A DNA stretch of 29,804 bases, taken from a virus. The stretch covers positions 1 through 29,804 of IMG/VR virus record IMGVR_UViG_3300007734_000553. One strand, 5' to 3'. Positions 5,301-29,804 of this stretch are shown here, one piece after another. A program made the position numbers and the translations under genes. Each line of letters begins with the position of its first letter. The stretch's first letter is position 1. The notes below the pieces were generated by a model. It ran no database searches. It was not told where the DNA came from and saw nothing but the letters and a program-made list of their open reading frames with translations.

Positions 5301-5357
5301 GAGCCGATGACCTGTTCCGCAGGAACCCCAACCCCTTCTCTTTAGGTGAGACCTACC

Positions 5358-5810
5358 ATGGCCACTTCCACGATCGTTCAGTTCCTCGGCAACGAAGCCG
5401 CTGGCGGCACCTCCTCCACGATGAACCGCGCTCAGATCGAGACGTTCATCGCGGGCGGCAGCATCACCGCCGGCGACTTCGTCATCCTCGACACCTCCCA
5501 GACCGGCTCGGATCGCGACCTGTACGTGATCCAGTCGCCGGCCACCGCGGGCAACCCCCTCTGCATCGGCGTCGCCAAGACCGGCGCGACCGTTGGCCAG
5601 AAGGTCGACGTCGTCGTCGCTGGCTACTACGCCACCGCCAACGTCGTCACCGGCGTCCTGAAGGGTGAGGCCGTCGTCACCAGCGGCGCCACCGCTGGCC
5701 GCGCCCTCAAGTACGCCACCGGCACCCACACCAACACGGATGCCATCGCCGTCGCCCTGGCCGATGCCGCCAGCAACGTCGCCCCCGTCCACATCTTCAA
5801 GCACTTTTAG
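5358..5810 (+). CDS. Capsid cement/decoration protein (DUF2190-like)
   Basis: This 150-residue, beta-rich, Gly/Ala/Val/Thr-rich protein directly follows the capsid gene. The repeated short strands, for example ITAGDFVILDTS, CIGVAKTGATVGQKVDVVVA and GRALKYATG, resemble the barrel-like cement proteins (DUF2190 type) that bind the outside of expanded capsids and strengthen them. The ATG at 5358 is preferred over an in-frame GTG at 5346 because AGGTGAG (5344-5350) fits as its ribosome site. It lies between two strong hairpins (5264-5300 and 5823-5872) and so is likely its own expression unit with the capsid gene. The family assignment is from general sequence character. Confidence 0.82.
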   Translation: MATSTIVQFLGNEAAGGTSSTMNRAQIETFIAGGSITAGDFVILDTSQTGSDRDLYVIQSPATAGNPLCIGVAKTGATVGQKVDVVVAGYYATANVVTGVLKGEAVVTSGATAGRALKYATGTHTNTDAIAVALADAASNVAPVHIFKHF

Positions 5811-5915: not shown

Positions 5916-7277
5916 GTGAACCTCGGGAACCTTCGCAGCTTTTGCGGCAATCTCCTCGACTACGACCCCACGAACGCGACGTACACGGCGCAGCTCACCG
6001 CGTTCCTGAACGACGCCCAGGCGCGAATCCTCACGGACAAGCCGTGGGACTTCTGCCAGCGCGAAGGCGACGTCGACGTGCGCAACGATCAACCCGTGAC
6101 CGGGCTCGGCCTCGTCAACGGCTCGGCCACCGTCACCGGCGCGCTCTTTCCCCTGTCGATCAACCCGATCCTGCCCGGCAGCCTTTGGGACGGGTCCACC
6201 CTCGTCATCGGCTCCGAGTCCTACCAGATCGCTTGGGTCAGCGCGGCCAACACGCTGTACTTGACCACCGAGTTTCGCGGCACCAGCGGCACCTACGCCG
6301 GCACCGTCAAGAGCCGCGAGATCTACCTGCCCGCCGATACGGCCAGCGTCATGTCGGTGCTCGACAAGAGCCGCGGCATCCCCGTGCCCCAGGCGATGAT
6401 CTCGAAGTTCGAGCGCGACACGGCCCGCCTGGACCCGAACCTGCTGGGTGTCGCTGAGTGCTTCCTGCCCAGCCAAGGGCGTCGCATACCCGCCCCCCGT
6501 GCGGTCAACGGGGTGGCCATCACCACGCCCGGCGCGGGCCGCGGTGTCCGCACGCTCAACATCTACATGGTCAACGTGATCGGCCCCGCCCATCGCTTGG
6601 GCAGTCTCTACCGAGAGGATGCCAGCGCGGGGTTTGAGTCCGGTCTCTCCGCCGTGCAGACCATCACCCTGGCCGACAACCAAGAGATCACGCTCACCCC
6701 CGAGACGCTGCCCAACCTCACCGGGCTGTATCGGCGGTACTACTTCACGTGCCCCGACCTCGGCATCAACGCCCCCGTGCGTTTGGTGCACGCCGCGAAT
6801 TCGCCCCCTGGGCTCAACGTGGACACGGTCTCGCCTGCGGGCGGTGTGACCCTCGCCCCGAACACCAGCGTGGCCACGATCACGTCCCAGACCTTTCAAT
6901 CGCGGTCCATTCGGTACGTGCGCAGCAACGGGGTCTACCAGAGCATCCTGCTCTATCCGCACCCCAACCTGAATGCGTCGAACGCCTTCGCCGTGCGCCG
7001 TCTGGTGTCCCCGAGCGCCATGGAAGAGGACCAGGACGTGCCGCTGGTGCCGGAATCCTTCGCGCAGATCATCGCCTATGCCGCGATGGAACAGCTCGCG
7101 ATGAAGGTCAACAACATGGCCTTGGCCCAGGCCTACGCCCGCAAGCGCGACGTGTTGTACCAGAGCATGGAGGCGCGGTACCTGGGCATCGCCCCGCGGC
7201 GCATCGTCAAGGGAGACGGGGTGACCGGCCAGCGGTTCTATCCCAATCCCTTCGGCCCGCTCACCTTCACCCCCTGA
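5916..7277 (+). CDS. Head-tail adaptor / tail tubular A-like protein
   Basis: This 453-residue protein begins the tail module. The N-terminus (NLRSFCGNLLDYDP, then AFLNDAQARILTDKPWDF) and the C-terminal helical part (about 370-430, SFAQIIAYAAMEQLAMKVNN followed by ALAQAYARKRDVLYQSMEARYLG) resemble adaptor proteins such as T7 gp11, which sit under the portal and carry the nozzle. Between them lies a long beta-rich insertion (about 50-360) not typical of the shortest family members; T7 gp11 is under half this length, so extra domains are present. I chose GTG at 5916 because a G-rich ribosome site (GGGGTGG) precedes it. Its position just before the nozzle gene supports the call. The assignment is inferred from order and ends of the protein. 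Confidence 0.75.
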   Translation: MNLGNLRSFCGNLLDYDPTNATYTAQLTAFLNDAQARILTDKPWDFCQREGDVDVRNDQPVTGLGLVNGSATVTGALFPLSINPILPGSLWDGSTLVIGSESYQIAWVSAANTLYLTTEFRGTSGTYAGTVKSREIYLPADTASVMSVLDKSRGIPVPQAMISKFERDTARLDPNLLGVAECFLPSQGRRIPAPRAVNGVAITTPGAGRGVRTLNIYMVNVIGPAHRLGSLYREDASAGFESGLSAVQTITLADNQEITLTPETLPNLTGLYRRYYFTCPDLGINAPVRLVHAANSPPGLNVDTVSPAGGVTLAPNTSVATITSQTFQSRSIRYVRSNGVYQSILLYPHPNLNASNAFAVRRLVSPSAMEEDQDVPLVPESFAQIIAYAAMEQLAMKVNNMALAQAYARKRDVLYQSMEARYLGIAPRRIVKGDGVTGQRFYPNPFGPLTFTP

Positions 7278-7284
7278 GGCCAAC

Positions 7285-9468
7285 ATGGAAGGAAACATCT
7301 TTCAGGTTCCCACCGCCGGGGGTTATGAGAGCAAGCTGCCGCAGACCCCGCAGAATGGCGGCAAGGTCGTCAACTGGACCATGGACAAGCAGACCGGGGC
7401 GTGGTCCAGCCGCCTCGGCTACGAGAAGTGGAACCCCCAAGCGTCTGCGTTCTTTCAGCCGTTCAACACCACCGGCCCGATCACCAGCCTCTTCGTGAGC
7501 CAGGGGCTCGGCGGTGGTGCGCGGCAGTCCATCTTCTATGAGTCCGAAGGCACGCTGTACCTGGCCTACGATGCCGGGGCCAACAACACGCTGGTGCGCC
7601 CGGTCAAGGGCAACCGCCACGTCCCAACCCCCACGGAGTGCGGGAGCTGGTACACCGATGTAGGGGGTGGGGTCGTCATCACCAACGGCGTCGATCGACC
7701 CATCTTCGTGCGCCCGTGGCCGTTGGGGGACGCCGCCGAGAGCTTGAACACGCTGTCTCAATGCGTGCGCAGCTTTGGCTTCGATTCCGCGCCCACCCCG
7801 GTCACCTTGTACCGCAACACCCCGATGACCGCGGTGGATGACAGCTCCGTCATCACGGGCGGCGGCGCCACCACCCTCTGGTGGCCCAGTCAATCGGGCG
7901 CCATCACGGACGGCGGCAAATGGGGTCTGGGCTTCGCCAAGGGCCCTGCGAGCGGCGACCCTGAGAACGAGTCCCTGTTCGGGTGGGCGTGCAGCTTCGT
8001 GAGCGACACGGGCTCCGAAGGCCCCTTGTCGACCATGGCCACCACCAACTGGACCCAGCCCGTAGGCAGCGATGGGTTTCGGTTCGCCATCGCCATGGAG
8101 CTGCCCCAGGGCCCGAATGGCACGGTGGCCCGCAAGGTCTACCGCACCAAGAACTACAGCGATGACTGGACCCAGCCGGGTGACACGACCCTTTACTACG
8201 TGGGCACCGTCTACAACAACGTGGACACCTTCTACGTCGACGCGGTGCGGACCACCGTCACCACCACCACCGCGGACGCCATCCCGACCGGCCCCCTGCC
8301 CGCCCCCCGGGCCCGGTTCAGCGCGCTGTTCAACGGGTGCCTTTGGCTCGATGGCGGCATCGACGACAGCCGCACCCTCTACTACTCGGCCCCCGGACTC
8401 ATCGAGCAGTTCCCGATCACGAACTACTTGACGCTCTCCGGTCAGGGCGGTGGCATCACCGCCTTGTACGGAAACTACACGAGCCTCCTCGTGTTCCGCG
8501 AGAACGCGATCGACGTGGTGACCGGCAACCCCAGCGCCGGGTTTCAAATCACCACGATCAGCAACAGCACCTCGTGTCGCTCGCCCAAGTCGATCCGCTC
8601 GATCCCTGGGTTGGGTGTCGTGTTCTTGGCGCAAGACGGCGTGTACGCCATCACGGGTGGCTTGACTGGCGGGGCCACCACGGAGATCATCAGTCTCTCG
8701 GATGGCATCGACGAATTCATCCGTCGCATGACGCCGGATTGTCTGCCCCGGGCTGTCTCGGCGTACTCCACGGCCACGAAGGAGTACCACCTCTACATCC
8801 CGATGGACGGCAACGATCGCCCCACGCAGGGCCTTGTATTGCACGTGGACCGCATCGGGGACCGCCAAGGGCTCTCGGCCTGGTCCGTGCGTGAAGGCTT
8901 CCCCGTTGGGGACGTGGACGCCATGTACGATGGCTTCCTGGTGTTCGGGCACCACACCGGCACCGAGGCCGGCGGCAGCAACCCTGAGGCGGGGTTGTTC
9001 GTGATCAGCCAGGCCCGGCACATGGGTGGCAGCGTCACGGGCGAGCAAGCGCCGGTCTACACCCCCGGCCCCGCCCCCACCAGCGTCTATCGCTCGGCGT
9101 GGAATGACCTGGGCGATCCACGGCTTCAGAAGCAGGTCAACTACGTGGTGGTGTGGGTGTTGACCACGGGTGATCCGCTGATCACCGTGCGCCACTACAA
9201 GGATTTCCAGCTCACCTTCGTCACCGAACGCACCTTCAAGGCGCAGCCGCCGGACGCCCCGGCCATGCCGGTCTTCGACACGGCCATCTTGAACAGCGGG
9301 GCCACGTACCAGCAAGAGCGGCTGGTTCCGATTCGGGTTAGCATCGCCCAGCAATCGTGTGCGTGGTTCGCCTTCGAGATCTCGACCCAAGAAGATCTGA
9401 TCCTCGTGGGCTACGAGATCGAGTACGTCTCGAAGGGCACCAAGACCATCATGGGGGTGCGGGCATGA
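7285..9468 (+). CDS. Tail nozzle / tail tubular B-like protein
   Basis: This 727-residue beta-rich protein follows the adaptor gene with seven bases between, its ribosome site (GAGG) merged with the upstream TGA. Its length and character (repeated strand-turn units, many Gly, Thr and aromatic residues) match T7 gp12-type nozzle proteins, which form a propeller-like hexamer at the tip of short tails. Segments such as ARFSALFNGCLWLDGG, YYSAPGLIEQFP, YTSLLVFRENAIDVVTG and GLGVVFLAQDGVYAITGG (about 340-460) are typical of this group: 'source - read-out - start-up message' like repeats seen in podophage nozzles. The 3' end overlaps the next gene by ATGA. No enzymatic motif was seen. Confidence 0.8.
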   Translation: MEGNIFQVPTAGGYESKLPQTPQNGGKVVNWTMDKQTGAWSSRLGYEKWNPQASAFFQPFNTTGPITSLFVSQGLGGGARQSIFYESEGTLYLAYDAGANNTLVRPVKGNRHVPTPTECGSWYTDVGGGVVITNGVDRPIFVRPWPLGDAAESLNTLSQCVRSFGFDSAPTPVTLYRNTPMTAVDDSSVITGGGATTLWWPSQSGAITDGGKWGLGFAKGPASGDPENESLFGWACSFVSDTGSEGPLSTMATTNWTQPVGSDGFRFAIAMELPQGPNGTVARKVYRTKNYSDDWTQPGDTTLYYVGTVYNNVDTFYVDAVRTTVTTTTADAIPTGPLPAPRARFSALFNGCLWLDGGIDDSRTLYYSAPGLIEQFPITNYLTLSGQGGGITALYGNYTSLLVFRENAIDVVTGNPSAGFQITTISNSTSCRSPKSIRSIPGLGVVFLAQDGVYAITGGLTGGATTEIISLSDGIDEFIRRMTPDCLPRAVSAYSTATKEYHLYIPMDGNDRPTQGLVLHVDRIGDRQGLSAWSVREGFPVGDVDAMYDGFLVFGHHTGTEAGGSNPEAGLFVISQARHMGGSVTGEQAPVYTPGPAPTSVYRSAWNDLGDPRLQKQVNYVVVWVLTTGDPLITVRHYKDFQLTFVTERTFKAQPPDAPAMPVFDTAILNSGATYQQERLVPIRVSIAQQSCAWFAFEISTQEDLILVGYEIEYVSKGTKTIMGVRA

Positions 9469-24540: not shown

Positions 24541-24650
24541 ATACACCACTCACCACCCCCATACACCCCCTAATGCAGCAACACACTTTTGCACCCATGC
24601 AACAATACGGGCTGGCATGGGGGTGCATAGGGGTGTATATGGGTGCATCC
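24541..24650. promoter_or_regulatory. Operator-like repeat cluster in divergent intergenic region
   Basis: Three tandem 10-base repeats with consensus GGGTGYATAN occupy 24621-24630, 24631-24640 and 24641-24650, just before the AAGGAG site (24655-24660) of the next gene. On the other strand the same core (GGTGTAT, read as ATACACC on the top strand) appears at 24541-24547 and 24561-24567, exactly 20 bases apart. A dyad TGCACCCATGC (24590-24600) / GCATGGGGGTGCA (24615-24627) links the two groups. Spacings of 10 and 20 bases equal one and two helical turns, as expected for cooperative binding. TATATG (24636-24641) lies within the repeats and could be a -10 box. Confidence 0.62.
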
Positions 24651-24669: not shown

Positions 24670-24861
24670 ATGCCCAGTGTTCACACCAAGACTTACAAGG
24701 TCTCCGATGCAAACGTCGACACGCTGGAGTGGATTCGCGCCCAGTCCGGCTGCCGCTCGTCAACCGACACGCTCGCCCGCATGATCGAGTGGGTCTCCGC
24801 CGATCCCACCGCGTTGACCGCGTTCCGCAACCGTGTTCATAAGAGCAGCGCGCAACGCTGA
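24670..24861 (+). CDS. Small ribbon-helix-helix-like DNA-binding protein
   Basis: This 63-residue protein has the Arc/CopG-type plan: a short strand (TKTYKVSD, about 6-13), a first helix (NVDTLEWIRAQSG), a turn (CRSS), a second helix (TDTLARMIEWVSAD) and a short basic tail. Such proteins bind short direct repeats as dimers of dimers through the N-terminal strand. The tandem 10-base repeats immediately upstream are a natural target, suggesting autoregulation and control of the divergent leftward gene. The ribosome site AAGGAG sits 9 bases before the ATG. No catalytic residues or partner toxin-like gene are visible. The fold call is by pattern, not by close family memory. Confidence 0.7.
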   Translation: MPSVHTKTYKVSDANVDTLEWIRAQSGCRSSTDTLARMIEWVSADPTALTAFRNRVHKSSAQR

Positions 24862-24926: not shown

Positions 24927-27284
24927 ATGATCACCAACGCCACTGTAGCCCATTCGTATACACCGGTCGACAATATCGTTGAATTTGGGGTGAACGTGTC
25001 CCCCGAAGTGACCGGATTTCCCGTCGAGTGGCGCAAGGGGTTGGGTGGCCACGCGCCATGGCCCCGTCCGCCGAGTGGCCTGCACCACGTGCGAGACACG
25101 CATGATGGTGGACGTAAGGCCACCACCGGACTCTTCGATGGGCAGCAGCGGGATCGGGCCAGCCTGATCGCCGTGGACTGTATCGGGCTCGATGCGGACG
25201 CCGCAGATTGGATGGTGGCCACGGGTCAGCACCCGTCTACGGAAGCAGCCAAGGCGATCATGCACCGGCAATCGGCGAATGATGCCGAGGCCTTGAACGC
25301 AGCTTTGACGGTGCATCGCCGCGTGATCCTGGGGTTGATCGAGGCCGCTGGTTACCCGCCACCCACGCGCATCGTGCACTCCGGCTACGGCCTGCATCTG
25401 TGGTGGCACTTGGATTCCCCCGTGTGGAAGTCCAACGCCAGCGATTGGGCGAGCATTCAATTCGCGGCCCCCATGATGATCGCGAAAATCAACGAGACCG
25501 CCGGGTGGCACGCGATGGACCCCGCGGCCAAAGATGGCGGCACCCGGTTGTTGGCCGTGCCTGGAATGCACAACGTCAAAGGACACGCGAAGCGGTTGGT
25601 CATGGTCTCGGGGTGGTCCGAAACCCGGCTCACGATCGCCCAGGTGGAGTCTTGGATCGGGGTGCGCATCCAAGTCGATCCGATCACTGGACGGGTGCGC
25701 AAATCCCGCCCAGGGCCACTGCAGGGGGGTGCGCGATCCCCGATCGAGTTCGTTGATCTCAGCGCGCCTGAGTACCGGATGCCCGACGGGCGGTCCATGC
25801 TGGCGTGGATTCAAGAGCTCGCCCCGGGATCGGAGCGGGTGGGGTGCCCCGCGCCCGGTGGGCGCGATGGCAAGAATTCGATCACACTGCACCGCGAGAC
25901 GCCAGGGCACCCGTGGGAGTGGTGGGCCCACGACTTCGGGCGGGATCGCAACCTGGTTCACGCCCCCACGGCCCCCGAGGCCCCTGAGGGGGCCAGGGGG
26001 GGGCTCACCCTCGTCGAGAATGGCGATGAACACGGAATCGCCCCCGTTAGTCTATATACAACAACACCACATAAGACTAACGGGGGCGATTCCCACCCCA
26101 TCGGCATTCTCGACGAGGTAGGGCCCCCCCCTGGGCCAACCCCGGCCCCCGCCACCCCTGTGGCGCCCGTCCTCATCGAGCCTTCGCTCGAAGACACCGC
26201 CGCTCAGATCGCCGCCGCTAAGTTGGCCCCCGCCACACAACGCGATGCGTTCACCCCCGATGAGCTGGACCAATTGTTGGAGGGGGCCATCGCCGAAGCC
26301 ATCGGTGAGCCCGTTCCGCCCACCAAGCCGTATTCGACTGCCGCGGTTCGGTTCGCGGACTCCCGTAAGGCGATGGTGTGCACGCGGGCCCCTTGGCTGC
26401 ACTCCGCCAAGACTGGCGATCACGAGGCCCTGGCGATGCGTCTGGTGTGTCGCTCTCGCCGGTGCCCCGACTGTGCGCCCCTCCTCACAGCCGCGGCTGT
26501 AGGGGCCGTGGAGGCCACGCTGGGGGCCTTGTTCGCCAATGGGGCCGGGCTCCTTCGTGCGTGGCGTGTGCTCATCCTGCCGAACCTGGGCGATGACACC
26601 CGATTGGGCAGGTGGGCCGATGCCGCCCCCCGTGATCGGCACTACTTGACCATCGCGACCACGGCCACCACGACCCACACGTTCGTCATGTACCGAAGTA
26701 ACTTCCTCAACGAAGCGGGAAACGAGGTGCACCGCCCGCAGCGGTCTAAGACGAAGCCATCGCGGCTCGATCAATTGCTCGATGATGCCGTCGAGTACCG
26801 GGTGCCCTCGATGACTCGGTGGATCATTCAGCACGCATCGAAGCTCGTGGAATCCATCGACGTGGACTCGTGGGACTCCAAGCAGATTCGCCCGATTCGT
26901 GGGCGCGGTTGGCTGATCAAGACCATCATGATGGTGCGCAATGCCCTGCTCGGCATTCAGCCGGAGTCCACCGAGAAGGACCCCGATCGCGTCTCGATCG
27001 TGTCCCATATGACGCCGAAGGAGGTGCAGCGCCTCGCGGAAGAGACGGCGCTCGCATCGATCGCCGCAGAGCAGACCACCCAAGGCACCAAAATCGGGGC
27101 CGTCATCGCGACCCGGGTGCGGTGGGGGTTCGGGTCGGACCCCACGCCTGCCGGCACGATCCTGGAGGGACTGATCGAATCGGGGGCCATTCCCCGTGTG
27201 CGCGCCAAGCGCGGCACCAAGCCCCGGCAGGGCCCGACCGCATGGGATGACGCCTTCGAATGGATCGAGGGCACCGAACGCTAA
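24927..27284 (+). CDS. AEP-type primase fused to zinc-finger C-terminal part (replication protein)
   Basis: At 785 residues this is the only clear replication gene. The N-terminal part carries the three archaeo-eukaryotic primase motifs: acidic LDAD (Asp89, Asp91) after IAVD, the HSGYGLHLWW block (Gly153, Gly155, His157), and Asp198/Asp203 followed by TRLLAVPGMHNVKG (205-219), where most relatives have a PGT-x-N-x-K motif. Residues about 356-404 form a Pro/Gly-rich linker encoded by a large DNA palindrome. The C-terminal part starts with a likely zinc site (Cys485, His492, His499, Cys508, Cys513, Cys516; CRSRRCPDC) and a long region of unknown fold; no Walker A motif or HUH motif was found. 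The zinc part recalls plasmid replication initiators. It probably binds the origin and primes for the host polymerase. GAGGA precedes ATG 24927. Confidence 0.82.
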   Translation: MITNATVAHSYTPVDNIVEFGVNVSPEVTGFPVEWRKGLGGHAPWPRPPSGLHHVRDTHDGGRKATTGLFDGQQRDRASLIAVDCIGLDADAADWMVATGQHPSTEAAKAIMHRQSANDAEALNAALTVHRRVILGLIEAAGYPPPTRIVHSGYGLHLWWHLDSPVWKSNASDWASIQFAAPMMIAKINETAGWHAMDPAAKDGGTRLLAVPGMHNVKGHAKRLVMVSGWSETRLTIAQVESWIGVRIQVDPITGRVRKSRPGPLQGGARSPIEFVDLSAPEYRMPDGRSMLAWIQELAPGSERVGCPAPGGRDGKNSITLHRETPGHPWEWWAHDFGRDRNLVHAPTAPEAPEGARGGLTLVENGDEHGIAPVSLYTTTPHKTNGGDSHPIGILDEVGPPPGPTPAPATPVAPVLIEPSLEDTAAQIAAAKLAPATQRDAFTPDELDQLLEGAIAEAIGEPVPPTKPYSTAAVRFADSRKAMVCTRAPWLHSAKTGDHEALAMRLVCRSRRCPDCAPLLTAAAVGAVEATLGALFANGAGLLRAWRVLILPNLGDDTRLGRWADAAPRDRHYLTIATTATTTHTFVMYRSNFLNEAGNEVHRPQRSKTKPSRLDQLLDDAVEYRVPSMTRWIIQHASKLVESIDVDSWDSKQIRPIRGRGWLIKTIMMVRNALLGIQPESTEKDPDRVSIVSHMTPKEVQRLAEETALASIAAEQTTQGTKIGAVIATRVRWGFGSDPTPAGTILEGLIESGAIPRVRAKRGTKPRQGPTAWDDAFEWIEGTER
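25992..26137. repeat. Large imperfect palindrome inside the primase gene (candidate origin element)
   Basis: A perfect 20-bp stem (26034-26053 with 26074-26093) surrounds a 20-base AT-rich loop (26054-26073, containing CTATATAC at its edge). After a 5-base mismatched bubble, a second stem of 20 pairs with one mismatch (26009-26028 with 26099-26118) follows. A third, GC-only part has runs of eight G (25996-26003) facing eight C (26124-26131). Arms together are about 55-60 bases each. It is in frame and encodes the linker of the primase. It could be the replication origin, an inserted palindromic element or a transcript processing site. Confidence 0.85.
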
Positions 27285-27360: not shown

Positions 27361-27921
27361 ATGTTTGATGAGTGGGACCCATGCGCGTGGGCGGCAGACG
27401 TGGCGACGGCGGTGGCGGCCGATGAGGCCCTGGTGGCCCAAGTCCACGAAGTGTGTGCCAGCCCCCCATGGCATGAACCCCAATGGGCCAAACGCCTGGC
27501 CATCGAGGTCCCACGGCTCGCGACGGGCGCGTGTGGCGCGCGTGCCCTGCCCTACATGCCGCTCGAAGACGTCATCGCCGAATTGCAGGCCACGCTGATC
27601 ACCCGAAGCCAGAGCGCCGCATCCCGATGGGACCCAACCAGGGGCCGCACAACATGGACCGGGTGGGCCTGCATGGTCATGCGCTCCCGATTCCTGAACC
27701 TGGTGCGCGGGACCAACACCCCAACGGCCAAGTGCATCAGCTTCGCCAACGAGATGCAGGTGGAGGACTGGAGCGCGGACAGCCACCCCTACGATGAAGA
27801 CGATAGCCCCTGGTTGAGCAGCAAGGGGAAGCGGCCATCCAGAGCGGGCCAGCGGCGCACTGGACGCCCAATGGGCCGCCCTCGCAAGCACCCGAAGCCC
27901 CACACCGCCCCCGCCTTGTAA
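27361..27921 (+). CDS. Sigma-region-2-like protein with AT-hook-like tail
   Basis: This is a 186-residue protein. Residues about 68-118 (LEDVIAELQATLITRSQSAA, then SRWDPTRGRTTWTGWACMVM) resemble the sigma70 region 2 core, in which an Asp-Pro-x-Arg-Gly turn follows a helix and precedes the -10-binding helix. Region 4, the usual -35-binding part, is not evident. Instead the C-terminus has TGRPMGRPRKHPKP (167-180), similar to an AT-hook, a minor-groove binder. Such a protein could redirect host RNA polymerase to late promoters. It has its own promoter and a GGGGGA ribosome site, and is followed by a hairpin. An alternative is a non-sigma DNA-binding protein. The call is moderate. Confidence 0.68.
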   Translation: MFDEWDPCAWAADVATAVAADEALVAQVHEVCASPPWHEPQWAKRLAIEVPRLATGACGARALPYMPLEDVIAELQATLITRSQSAASRWDPTRGRTTWTGWACMVMRSRFLNLVRGTNTPTAKCISFANEMQVEDWSADSHPYDEDDSPWLSSKGKRPSRAGQRRTGRPMGRPRKHPKPHTAPAL

Positions 27922-28069: not shown

Positions 28070-28570
28070 GTGAAATGCCCTGCGTGTGGCGGCAAGACCC
28101 GTACTCAGCAGACGATCCCAGCAGAGAACCGCAACGATGGGCGCGTGTACCGCACCCGAAAGTGTCTGGAAGAAGGGTGCGGGACGCTGTCCTCGACCTT
28201 GGAGATCTATCACTCCGAACGGAACCTCGTCTTGATGGAGGGGGCCGCCCAACCCGCCGCCCCCACCGCCCCGGTCCCCGTGGTGGCCATCCCGATGGCG
28301 GCCCCTGGTACCTGCCTCTTCGACCTGGAAGGTGGTTTGGAGAAGGGACTGAAGCAGGCTGTCGCGTGCATCGTCGATGCCGTGGACACAACCAAGCCTG
28401 CCCCAGACAAGGTGCGCGTCGACGCCGCCAAGTGGCTCATCGAAGATCGCCGGAAATGGCGCATCGCCACCGCCCAGCAACTCAACCAGGCTGGCACCAC
28501 CCCCGCGGACCCCGCCATGGCCGAGCTCACTGGCATCCTGCGGTTGCTGCCACTTGAGGCGTCCGCGTGA
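28070..28570 (+). CDS. Zinc-ribbon protein, candidate small terminase subunit
   Basis: This 166-residue protein sits directly before the large terminase and overlaps its start, the usual place of the small terminase that recognises the packaging site. The N-terminus is a zinc ribbon: CPAC (Cys3, Cys6) and RKCLEEGC (Cys32, Cys37), with a spacing and an Arg-rich lead (VYRTRKC) reminiscent of NrdR. A Pro/Ala linker (about 62-84) leads to a helical C-terminal part (about 90-160; VRVDAAKWLIEDRRKWRIAT) that resembles helical segments of small terminases. GTG 28070 is preferred, since it keeps the first Cys pair and has GAGG (28059-28063) upstream. The small-terminase role is inferred from place; a transcription regulator is the alternative. 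Confidence 0.72.
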   Translation: MKCPACGGKTRTQQTIPAENRNDGRVYRTRKCLEEGCGTLSSTLEIYHSERNLVLMEGAAQPAAPTAPVPVVAIPMAAPGTCLFDLEGGLEKGLKQAVACIVDAVDTTKPAPDKVRVDAAKWLIEDRRKWRIATAQQLNQAGTTPADPAMAELTGILRLLPLEASA

Positions 28571-29804
28571 CCGTGTGGACCCCGCCCAGCATCCCTACGT
28601 CGATGCAGGGGCAAGCGAAGCGATTGGTTGGAGATCTCGGGCTGTTCGCCCGTCTGCACAAAGTCCAAGACAAGGACAGCAAGGCCGAGATCCCGTTCGA
28701 TCCCCTGCCGATGCAGACGAAGATCTTCGCGGCCATCGCCGCTGGGCACCGCCGCATCATCGTGTGCAAAGCGCGGCAGGTCGCCGCCACCACGGCTTGC
28801 AAGATGGCCCTGCACCATCTCGCCTACACAACGCCGAACGCGGCGATGCACGCCGTGGTGTCCATGCGCGCCGATTCGGCCACCAGCCTCATGGACGACA
28901 ACCGCCGGTGGGTCGGCCACTTGCCCCAAGCGTTGCGCCGCACCCTCAAAGTCAACGCACGCGGCGAGCTGGTCTATGCGGAGACGGGCGCAGGGATCAA
29001 GGCTTTCACTTCAAGATCTACGACCGGTCTGCGATCGTATGCGCCATCGGCCGTGCTCATCTCCGAGCACGCCTATGCCCCCGATCAAGATGAACTGCTG
29101 GCCCAGGCCACGGCGGCCGTAGGCGATGGGCTCTTGATCGTTGAGAGCACGGCCAACGCGCCCGGTGACGCCTTCAGCCGGCTGGTTCAGGGGGCGCCAG
29201 ACAACGGCTGGCACCTGATTACCATGTGGTGGTGGGAGCACCCGGCCTATGAAGACCTGGAGCCCGCCGAAGATCTGAGCCCCGCTGAGTTGCAGCTTCA
29301 GACCGCATACAACCTGACCCTGGGCCAACTGCACTGGCGCAGGCGGCAAGTGGCGACGCTGGGCGAGCACAAGTTCCGGCGTGAGTATCCAGCCAACCTC
29401 GATGACTGCTTCGTGTCGCGCAGCGGTGGTTACTTCGATGATCAAGCCTTGGGCACGGACGCGATTCATGTACTCGATTTCGCCGCGATCGGCGAAGACG
29501 GCGCACGAGAGATCGAGGCACCCGTGCACACCGATCGGTACGTCATGGGCGTGGACGTAGGCGGCGGCGTTGGTGGGGACTACTCGACCATCGCCGTGGT
29601 GAGCGTGGCGACCCGACAGCCGGTCTTCACTTGCCGTAGCAACAGGGCATCCCCTGCCGCTTGGGCGCACAAGGTCATTCAGGTGGCCAGCCGCTACAAC
29701 CAAGCCATGGTCTTGGCCGAGAGCAACAACCACGGCCATGCCTTGATTCAAGAGCTCGACAACTGCGGCTATCGCAACCAGTGGCGCAATCCCAAGACCG
29801 GCAA
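28567..29804 (+). CDS. terL: Terminase large subunit, N-terminal part (gene cut by contig end)
   Basis: This is the ATPase half of the packaging motor. GTG 28567 overlaps the upstream TGA, giving coupled synthesis with the candidate small subunit. Motifs in order: adenine-binding Gln in FDPLPMQTKIF (Gln50), Walker A-like KARQVAATT (68-76), Walker B LISEHA (164-169) with the Ser-Glu variant of the usual Asp-Glu (Glu167 catalytic), and coupling motif VESTAN (192-197). The nuclease domain starts at about 320 and reappears at the left end of the window. The frame is open to the last base; joined to 1-615 it gives 518 residues. The Ser-Glu variant is known in other phage terminases, so it is not a defect. 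Confidence 0.93.
   Translation, partial: MTVWTPPSIPTSMQGQAKRLVGDLGLFARLHKVQDKDSKAEIPFDPLPMQTKIFAAIAAGHRRIIVCKARQVAATTACKMALHHLAYTTPNAAMHAVVSMRADSATSLMDDNRRWVGHLPQALRRTLKVNARGELVYAETGAGIKAFTSRSTTGLRSYAPSAVLISEHAYAPDQDELLAQATAAVGDGLLIVESTANAPGDAFSRLVQGAPDNGWHLITMWWWEHPAYEDLEPAEDLSPAELQLQTAYNLTLGQLHWRRRQVATLGEHKFRREYPANLDDCFVSRSGGYFDDQALGTDAIHVLDFAAIGEDGAREIEAPVHTDRYVMGVDVGGGVGGDYSTIAVVSVATRQPVFTCRSNRASPAAWAHKVIQVASRYNQAMVLAESNNHGHALIQELDNCGYRNQWRNPKTG
29509..29804. repeat. Right copy of contig-end overlap (matches 1-296)
   Basis: These 296 bases repeat the left end with 11 substitutions and no gaps. The last 50 bases are identical to 247-296. Over the aligned reading frame nine codons differ, eight of them silently and one as Leu to Ile. 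This shows assembly closure through two diverged alleles of the terminase gene. Confidence 0.9.

Follow-up and report, generated by a model that had tools for sequence, protein, structure and literature searches.

A conserved hairpin inside a phage PrimPol-type gene is a candidate replication origin or priming site

Why would a phage carry a large palindrome inside the reading frame of its primase-like gene? The DNA analyzed here (the window) is the whole of IMG/VR record IMGVR_UViG_3300007734_000553, 29,804 nt in length, and it raises this question. We argue that the hairpin is very probably functional. We also argue that the palindrome acts in cis as a conserved DNA element of a phage PrimPol-type gene, most likely as a replication origin or priming site, and we put the probability of this reading at about 0.5.

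The two ends of the record are an inexact 296-bp repeat (1-296 and 29509-29804), with 285 of 296 positions identical and the differences clustered. Therefore, the genome is near-complete. The record closes on itself, and the end differences perhaps reflect two population variants. Its capsid, portal, and terminase have many relatives at 60-78% identity. In the window, the primase unit (24927-27284), portal, and terminase genes all share a strand; in the related phage L121 (5875-8229) and in G010, the primase unit is divergent from the other two. Relative to the packaging genes, the module has therefore been inverted. Downstream of the primase, positions 27361-27921 encode a protein of 186 aa, one end of which is basic and AT-hook-like (RTGRPMGRPRKHPK). 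It looks somewhat like a sigma factor by eye, and searches of Pfam and PHROG returned no match. A conserved gene at 28070-28570, 2 kb downstream of the palindrome and with a homologue in L121, may encode the small terminase.

The gene that contains the hairpin (24927-27284, plus strand) encodes a 785-aa primase-like replication protein of the AEP/PrimPol type. This assignment comes from the open frame, PHROG, and AEP-like motifs. The reading frame is open across the whole palindrome. The N-terminal part had a weak PHROG match to "DNA polymerase/primase" (E = 2e-4), and the 785-aa protein had no match in Pfam. D89xD91, S152-G-x-G-x-H157, and D203 align with the motifs of relatives, correspond to all of the standard archaeo-eukaryotic primase/PrimPol motifs (hhhDxD, sxH, and hD), and are all kept in L121. 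The AlphaFold model of the protein was poor (mean pLDDT 43.9). The PrimPol N-terminal part (aa about 45-330) is common to ten relatives at about 23-30% identity, and the rest of the gene is not. Most of these relatives continue into a VapE-like helicase part (profile match 7pds), and in one (L092/G024) the C-terminal part is of another kind. In the window, no helicase and no family match was found for the C-terminal part in Pfam, PHROG, or the alignment of the relatives. The N- and C-terminal parts meet at the palindrome. The initial annotation placed it in a linker between a primase domain and a zinc finger. The junction is borne out, and the zinc finger is putative, the C-terminal part having four cysteines that are conserved in L121.

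An inverted-repeat search of the window defined the palindrome as 148 bp (25990-26137), slightly longer than the roughly 145 bp first proposed. Its 64-nt arms (25990-26053 and 26074-26137) are 84% complementary and enclose a 20-nt, AT-rich, G-free loop (26054-26073; ATATACAACAACACCACATA). The inner stem is a perfect 20-bp pairing of 26034-26053 with 26074-26093. Beyond it is a 5 × 5 bubble with every position mismatched (26029-26033/26094-26098), followed by a second stem with a single mismatch (26009-26028/26099-26118). Another bubble then separates the second stem from an outermost stem that contains a G8 run (25996-26003) facing a C8 run (26124-26131). These are the only homopolymer runs of at least 8 in the window; both are specific to the window, and the G8 run falls in a gap in L121. 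Apart from the outer bubble, these parts had been described from the sequence at the outset, and the description holds. So does the claim that no other inverted repeat in the window comes close to it in strength: its ungapped score was 34, whereas every other inverted repeat scored below 13.

The palindrome is neither an accident nor an assembly artifact. Its DNA fold had an energy of -73.1 kcal/mol (z about -14) and its RNA fold one of -125.3 kcal/mol (z = -13.7); no shuffle was as good in either case. Perfect stems in the gene reach 20 bp, compared with at most 12 bp in codon-shuffled genes. An artifact was rejected because the arms do not match each other exactly and the L121 hairpin comes from an independent record. 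The loop and its edges contain nine A/T-ending codons in a row in a genome in which 17% of third positions are A/T, and a run this long occurred in 2 of 1,000 shuffled gene sets. The arm mismatches are clustered (a run of five, P = 0.0017), and half of the ten are at the middle position of a codon. The A/T-ending loop codons and the middle-position mismatches fit a nucleic-acid rather than a protein constraint. An intrinsic terminator was ruled out by the missing T run, which was sought after the stem on both strands, and Rfam had no match anywhere in the window.

Single-protein searches of viral contigs with the 785-aa protein, its N-terminal part, or its C-terminal part found no relatives, and neither did searches of GTDB genomes and named phages with the 785-aa protein. 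A search with the family alignment (A2) did reveal a full-length homologue with 44% identity (alignment A4) in the 16-kb IMG/VR phage record L121. A scan with both proteins found no third member. In the L121 gene, a perfect stem of 20 bp encloses a 16-nt loop (6981-7036) at codons that align with the palindrome site of the window, and this is the strongest inverted repeat of the L121 locus. The longest perfect stem is thus 20 bp in both genes, versus 7-11 bp in the ten relatives with a different C-terminal part. A second perfect hairpin in L121 (8177-8224; 15 bp with an 18-nt loop) covers the last primase codons and has no counterpart among the listed inverted repeats of the window.

The two in-gene hairpins differ by compensatory changes. 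In the codon alignment, the 18 shared inner pairs comprised 12 that were unchanged, 6 with two-sided changes, and none with a one-sided change. A MAFFT alignment agreed: in the 20-pair inner helix, both partners differed in six pairs and a single partner in none, 97.5% of cells were paired, and the edge pair 26035-26092 was the only one of the 20 unpaired in L121. For the full 40-pair structure, 90% of cells were paired, compared with 32-49% when the partners were slid. Furthermore, all changed inner pairs are Watson-Crick in both phages. The linker around the hairpin is otherwise variable. The initial annotation had raised the prospect of a relative with the same linker in which pairing is lost; in L121, the single relative available, pairing is kept. 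The stem lengths, set against shuffled genes and relatives, and the two-sided changes argue that base pairing itself, in DNA or RNA, is under selection or is maintained by a correction process. This covariation is one comparison of two sequences, and hairpin-templated correction could alternatively keep the arms matched and so mimic it.

The second stem of the window palindrome is an inverted pair of an 18-nt box, TCGTCGAGAATGCCGATG. Word searches and comparison of the arms placed copy 1 on the plus strand at 26011-26028 (TCGTCGAGAATGGCGATG, one mismatch) and copy 2, which is exact, on the minus strand at 26099-26116. No other copy with up to three mismatches was found in the window. L121 has two exact copies of the 18-mer in noncoding DNA upstream of its small gene and primase operon, where they form a direct rather than an inverted pair. 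They sit in 52-nt direct repeats that are 55 bp apart, which is not a multiple of three, so this is not a protein repeat. The left arm of the window palindrome matches this intergenic repeat on through the bubble (AACACGG), to the extent of TCGTCGAGAATGGCGATGAACACGG. Inside its primase gene, L121 retains the 14-mer CGTCGAGAATGCCG, shared with copy 2, in the right arm of the hairpin. Between the two records, the exact box is the only shared word of at least 17 nt outside collinear coding sequence, and in a small test, it was absent from seven unrelated genomes at up to one mismatch. Noncoding in L121 and part of a coding hairpin stem in the window, the box is best read as a putative DNA-binding site. 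The two box-bearing repeats of L121 and the GC-rich 17-bp hairpin beside them (5346-5452 and 5477-5522) lie between divergent operons.

Box-bearing hairpins also recur in the wider phage group. No in-gene palindrome was found in the helicase-type relatives. However, seven of these primase-helicase phages (alignment A3) have a comparable two-stage hairpin of about 180 bp in intergenic, noncoding DNA upstream of the terminase; examples are L022 1249-1427, L095 1378-1562, L097 1097-1270, L099 16167-16340, and L105 19253-19425. Like the window palindrome, these have an outer stem, a bubble, an inner stem, and an AT-rich loop, with boxes repeated in the stems and some covariation (10 of 36 pairs had one or more two-sided changes). 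They differ in their boxes, which are TGCAGGGT in the order -,+,-,+ at a spacing of about 38/86/38, in their noncoding site, and in their loop of about 78 columns. This intergenic hairpin is a candidate origin or operator for the wider group. At several other loci, the strongest inverted repeat is 0.3-2 kb upstream of the primase gene. In the window itself, an inverted repeat (24541-24648) with GGGTGCAT/GGGTGTAT boxes at 10-bp spacing lies in the intergenic DNA that precedes the small gene and primase. It is a candidate operator, or a rival or partner origin. Therefore, box-bearing hairpins recur near these PrimPol genes, and they are in-gene only in the window and L121. In another relative, L166, an AT-rich 19-bp hairpin (8838-8886) lies right at the 3' end of the primase gene and lacks a T run, a placement like that in pRN1.

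We favor a replication origin or priming site because the L121 stem is at the same codons, because the changes in it are compensatory, and because the box recurs in an intergenic region of L121. The hairpins of the seven primase-helicase phages also count for this reading. Two facing box copies would flank a perfectly paired inner hairpin with its AT-rich loop. The primase-like initiator, or a partner, may bind the boxes, and the hairpin would be exposed as a cruciform or as single-stranded DNA. The primase could then make the first primer within or beside the loop, and host helicase and polymerase would extend it. GTG, the start motif of the pRN1 and RSF1010 primases, can be read on the minus strand in the loop of the window (ACACCACAT) and is absent from the L121 loop.

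Counting against an origin here are the skew, the rival site at 24541-24648, and the two-member sample. The GC-skew maximum is at 26040 and moved to 1698 once the palindrome was removed. We rejected it as evidence of an origin because the palindrome itself creates it. Third-position (GC3) skew showed no switch at the palindrome. The hairpin origin proposed in the initial annotation is partly supported: it gained from the L121 pairing with its compensatory changes and from the direct box repeats, and third-position skew did not add to it.

Might the boxes serve regulation instead? They could be an auxiliary operator bound by a repressor that acts on the primase operon and is perhaps the small protein encoded upstream, with the in-gene and upstream copies forming a loop or a roadblock that controls initiator synthesis. 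The direct repeats upstream of the L121 operon suit this explanation, as does the fact that the L121 upstream box is itself a dyad (GTGTTCGTCG...CGATGAACAC). In addition, both phages have a small gene ahead of the primase, and the two copies are homologous. In the window, this gene is at 24673-24861 on the plus strand and encodes 62 aa from the given ATG (E = 7e-10 to the L121 gene). Its product had no Pfam match and is CopG-like by reading only. However, an operator leaves the perfect pairing of the box-free inner stem unexplained, and this box is missing from the window's own upstream region. We consider this explanation unlikely.

Somewhat less probable again is an element of the mRNA, in which a hairpin in the transcript would be an RNase III target, a translational pause, or a frameshift stimulator that limits or splits the product. 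The RNA fold is very stable, and the hairpin sits between the two parts of the protein. Furthermore, a G GGG GGG stretch is in the reading frame 5 nt 5' of the second stem (25997-26003), from which a -1 shift would lead to a stop at 26027. We considered a frameshift signal there, but the G run is missing from L121. The noncoding box repeats upstream in L121 are also unexplained by this alternative, and the changed inner pairs are all Watson-Crick, whereas RNA helices often change via G-U.

The initial annotation offered a mobile palindrome as its second explanation. A mobile or selfish sequence, like the Rickettsia palindromic elements or REPs, would have inserted in frame into a tolerant linker. 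The linker position and the poor codon usage of the loop are in keeping with this, as are the absence of the palindrome from helicase-type relatives and the L121 box copies at other places. However, a Rickettsia-type element needs several copies in one or in related genomes; the window has one, and no relatives were found in phages, plasmids, or viral contigs. Exact and gapped searches with the core stem found no family. The nine core matches in GTDB genomes were at chance level and had no outer stem in common. Searches of phages and plasmids by blastn with the palindrome and with the L121 repeat gave only weak, short matches. The inner hairpin is, moreover, at the same codons in two diverged phages, with compensatory changes in a 44%-identical homologue. 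The mobile reading is not supported by these results, and we regard it as quite improbable.

Even more doubtful is a functionless inverted duplication that arose by template switching at the module junction and whose arms stay matched through hairpin-templated correction. Template switching can perfect stems, and the site is where the C-terminal part of the gene departs from those of its relatives. Against this, the hairpin is kept at the same codons over deep divergence in an otherwise variable linker, the clustered mismatches with half at middle codon positions are not a pattern of decay, and the box is shared with an intergenic repeat. Least likely of all is another DNA transaction site, used for instance to start packaging or for recombination; inverted putative protein-binding boxes around a hairpin and the possible small terminase gene 2 kb downstream would suit such uses, but no integrase or resolvase was recognized among the proteins scanned, and pac sites are usually in or beside the small terminase gene.

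Returning to a replication origin or priming site, we tentatively extend this reading to the phage lineage. It is possible that, in a lineage with a PrimPol initiator and no recognizable helicase, the origin is a protein-coding hairpin inside the initiator gene, with inverted initiator boxes and a perfect stem maintained through compensatory change, and that the comparable two-stage hairpin of helicase-bearing relatives is noncoding. If so, one stretch of DNA would be a linker, an initiator-binding site, and a priming hairpin. Such an arrangement would indicate a way for a small phage to begin replication when it has no recognized polymerase or helicase. A coding hairpin with inverted boxes and compensatory evolution is a compact, testable element, and the combination of box and stem offers a way to seek origins in uncultured phages. 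Among PrimPol replicons, hairpin origins have been described in few systems, and their mode of firing is under dispute (PMC4234260 versus PMC3869888).

The closest known case is pRN1 of Sulfolobus, in which a 100-nt stem-loop origin beside the PrimPol gene orf904 is needed for replication; a similar loop has been reported downstream of the phage BIP-1 replication gene (PMC4234260, PMC3869888). The pRN1 family likewise has a large stem-loop (21-nt stem) tied to a PrimPol gene, a small gene upstream in the operon, and pairing that is conserved while sequence changes, here in two sequences. However, the pRN1 loop is 58 nt, noncoding, and 3' of the gene, and the protein has an SF3 helicase. In the window and L121, the hairpin is in coding sequence, with a 16-20-nt loop, flanking boxes that are inverted in the window, and no recognizable helicase. 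In RSF1010, the ssiA and ssiB hairpins are recognized by the primase RepB' (PMC4434180). This is again a pairing of hairpins with an archaeo-eukaryotic-type primase, which in RSF1010 starts primers beside them, and recognition in our phage is only proposed. Each ssi site is a noncoding element of 40 nt that lies in oriV next to RepC iterons, whereas the window has one large inverted structure within the primase gene.

An origin may also be embedded in the gene of its own initiator. The lambda ori lies inside O. In repABC plasmids, oriV is within the initiator gene repC (PMC3155836). These origins are AT-rich or iteron stretches without long hairpins, however, and their initiators are not PrimPols. 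Finally, Nematomorpha mitochondria have long inverted repeats in translated genes (PMC6649704). As in the window, pairing and protein are kept together in coding palindromes. There, the repeats are many and perfect and occupy conserved protein regions of mitochondrial genes, whereas the element of the window is single, occupies a variable linker, and has a box in common with an intergenic region.
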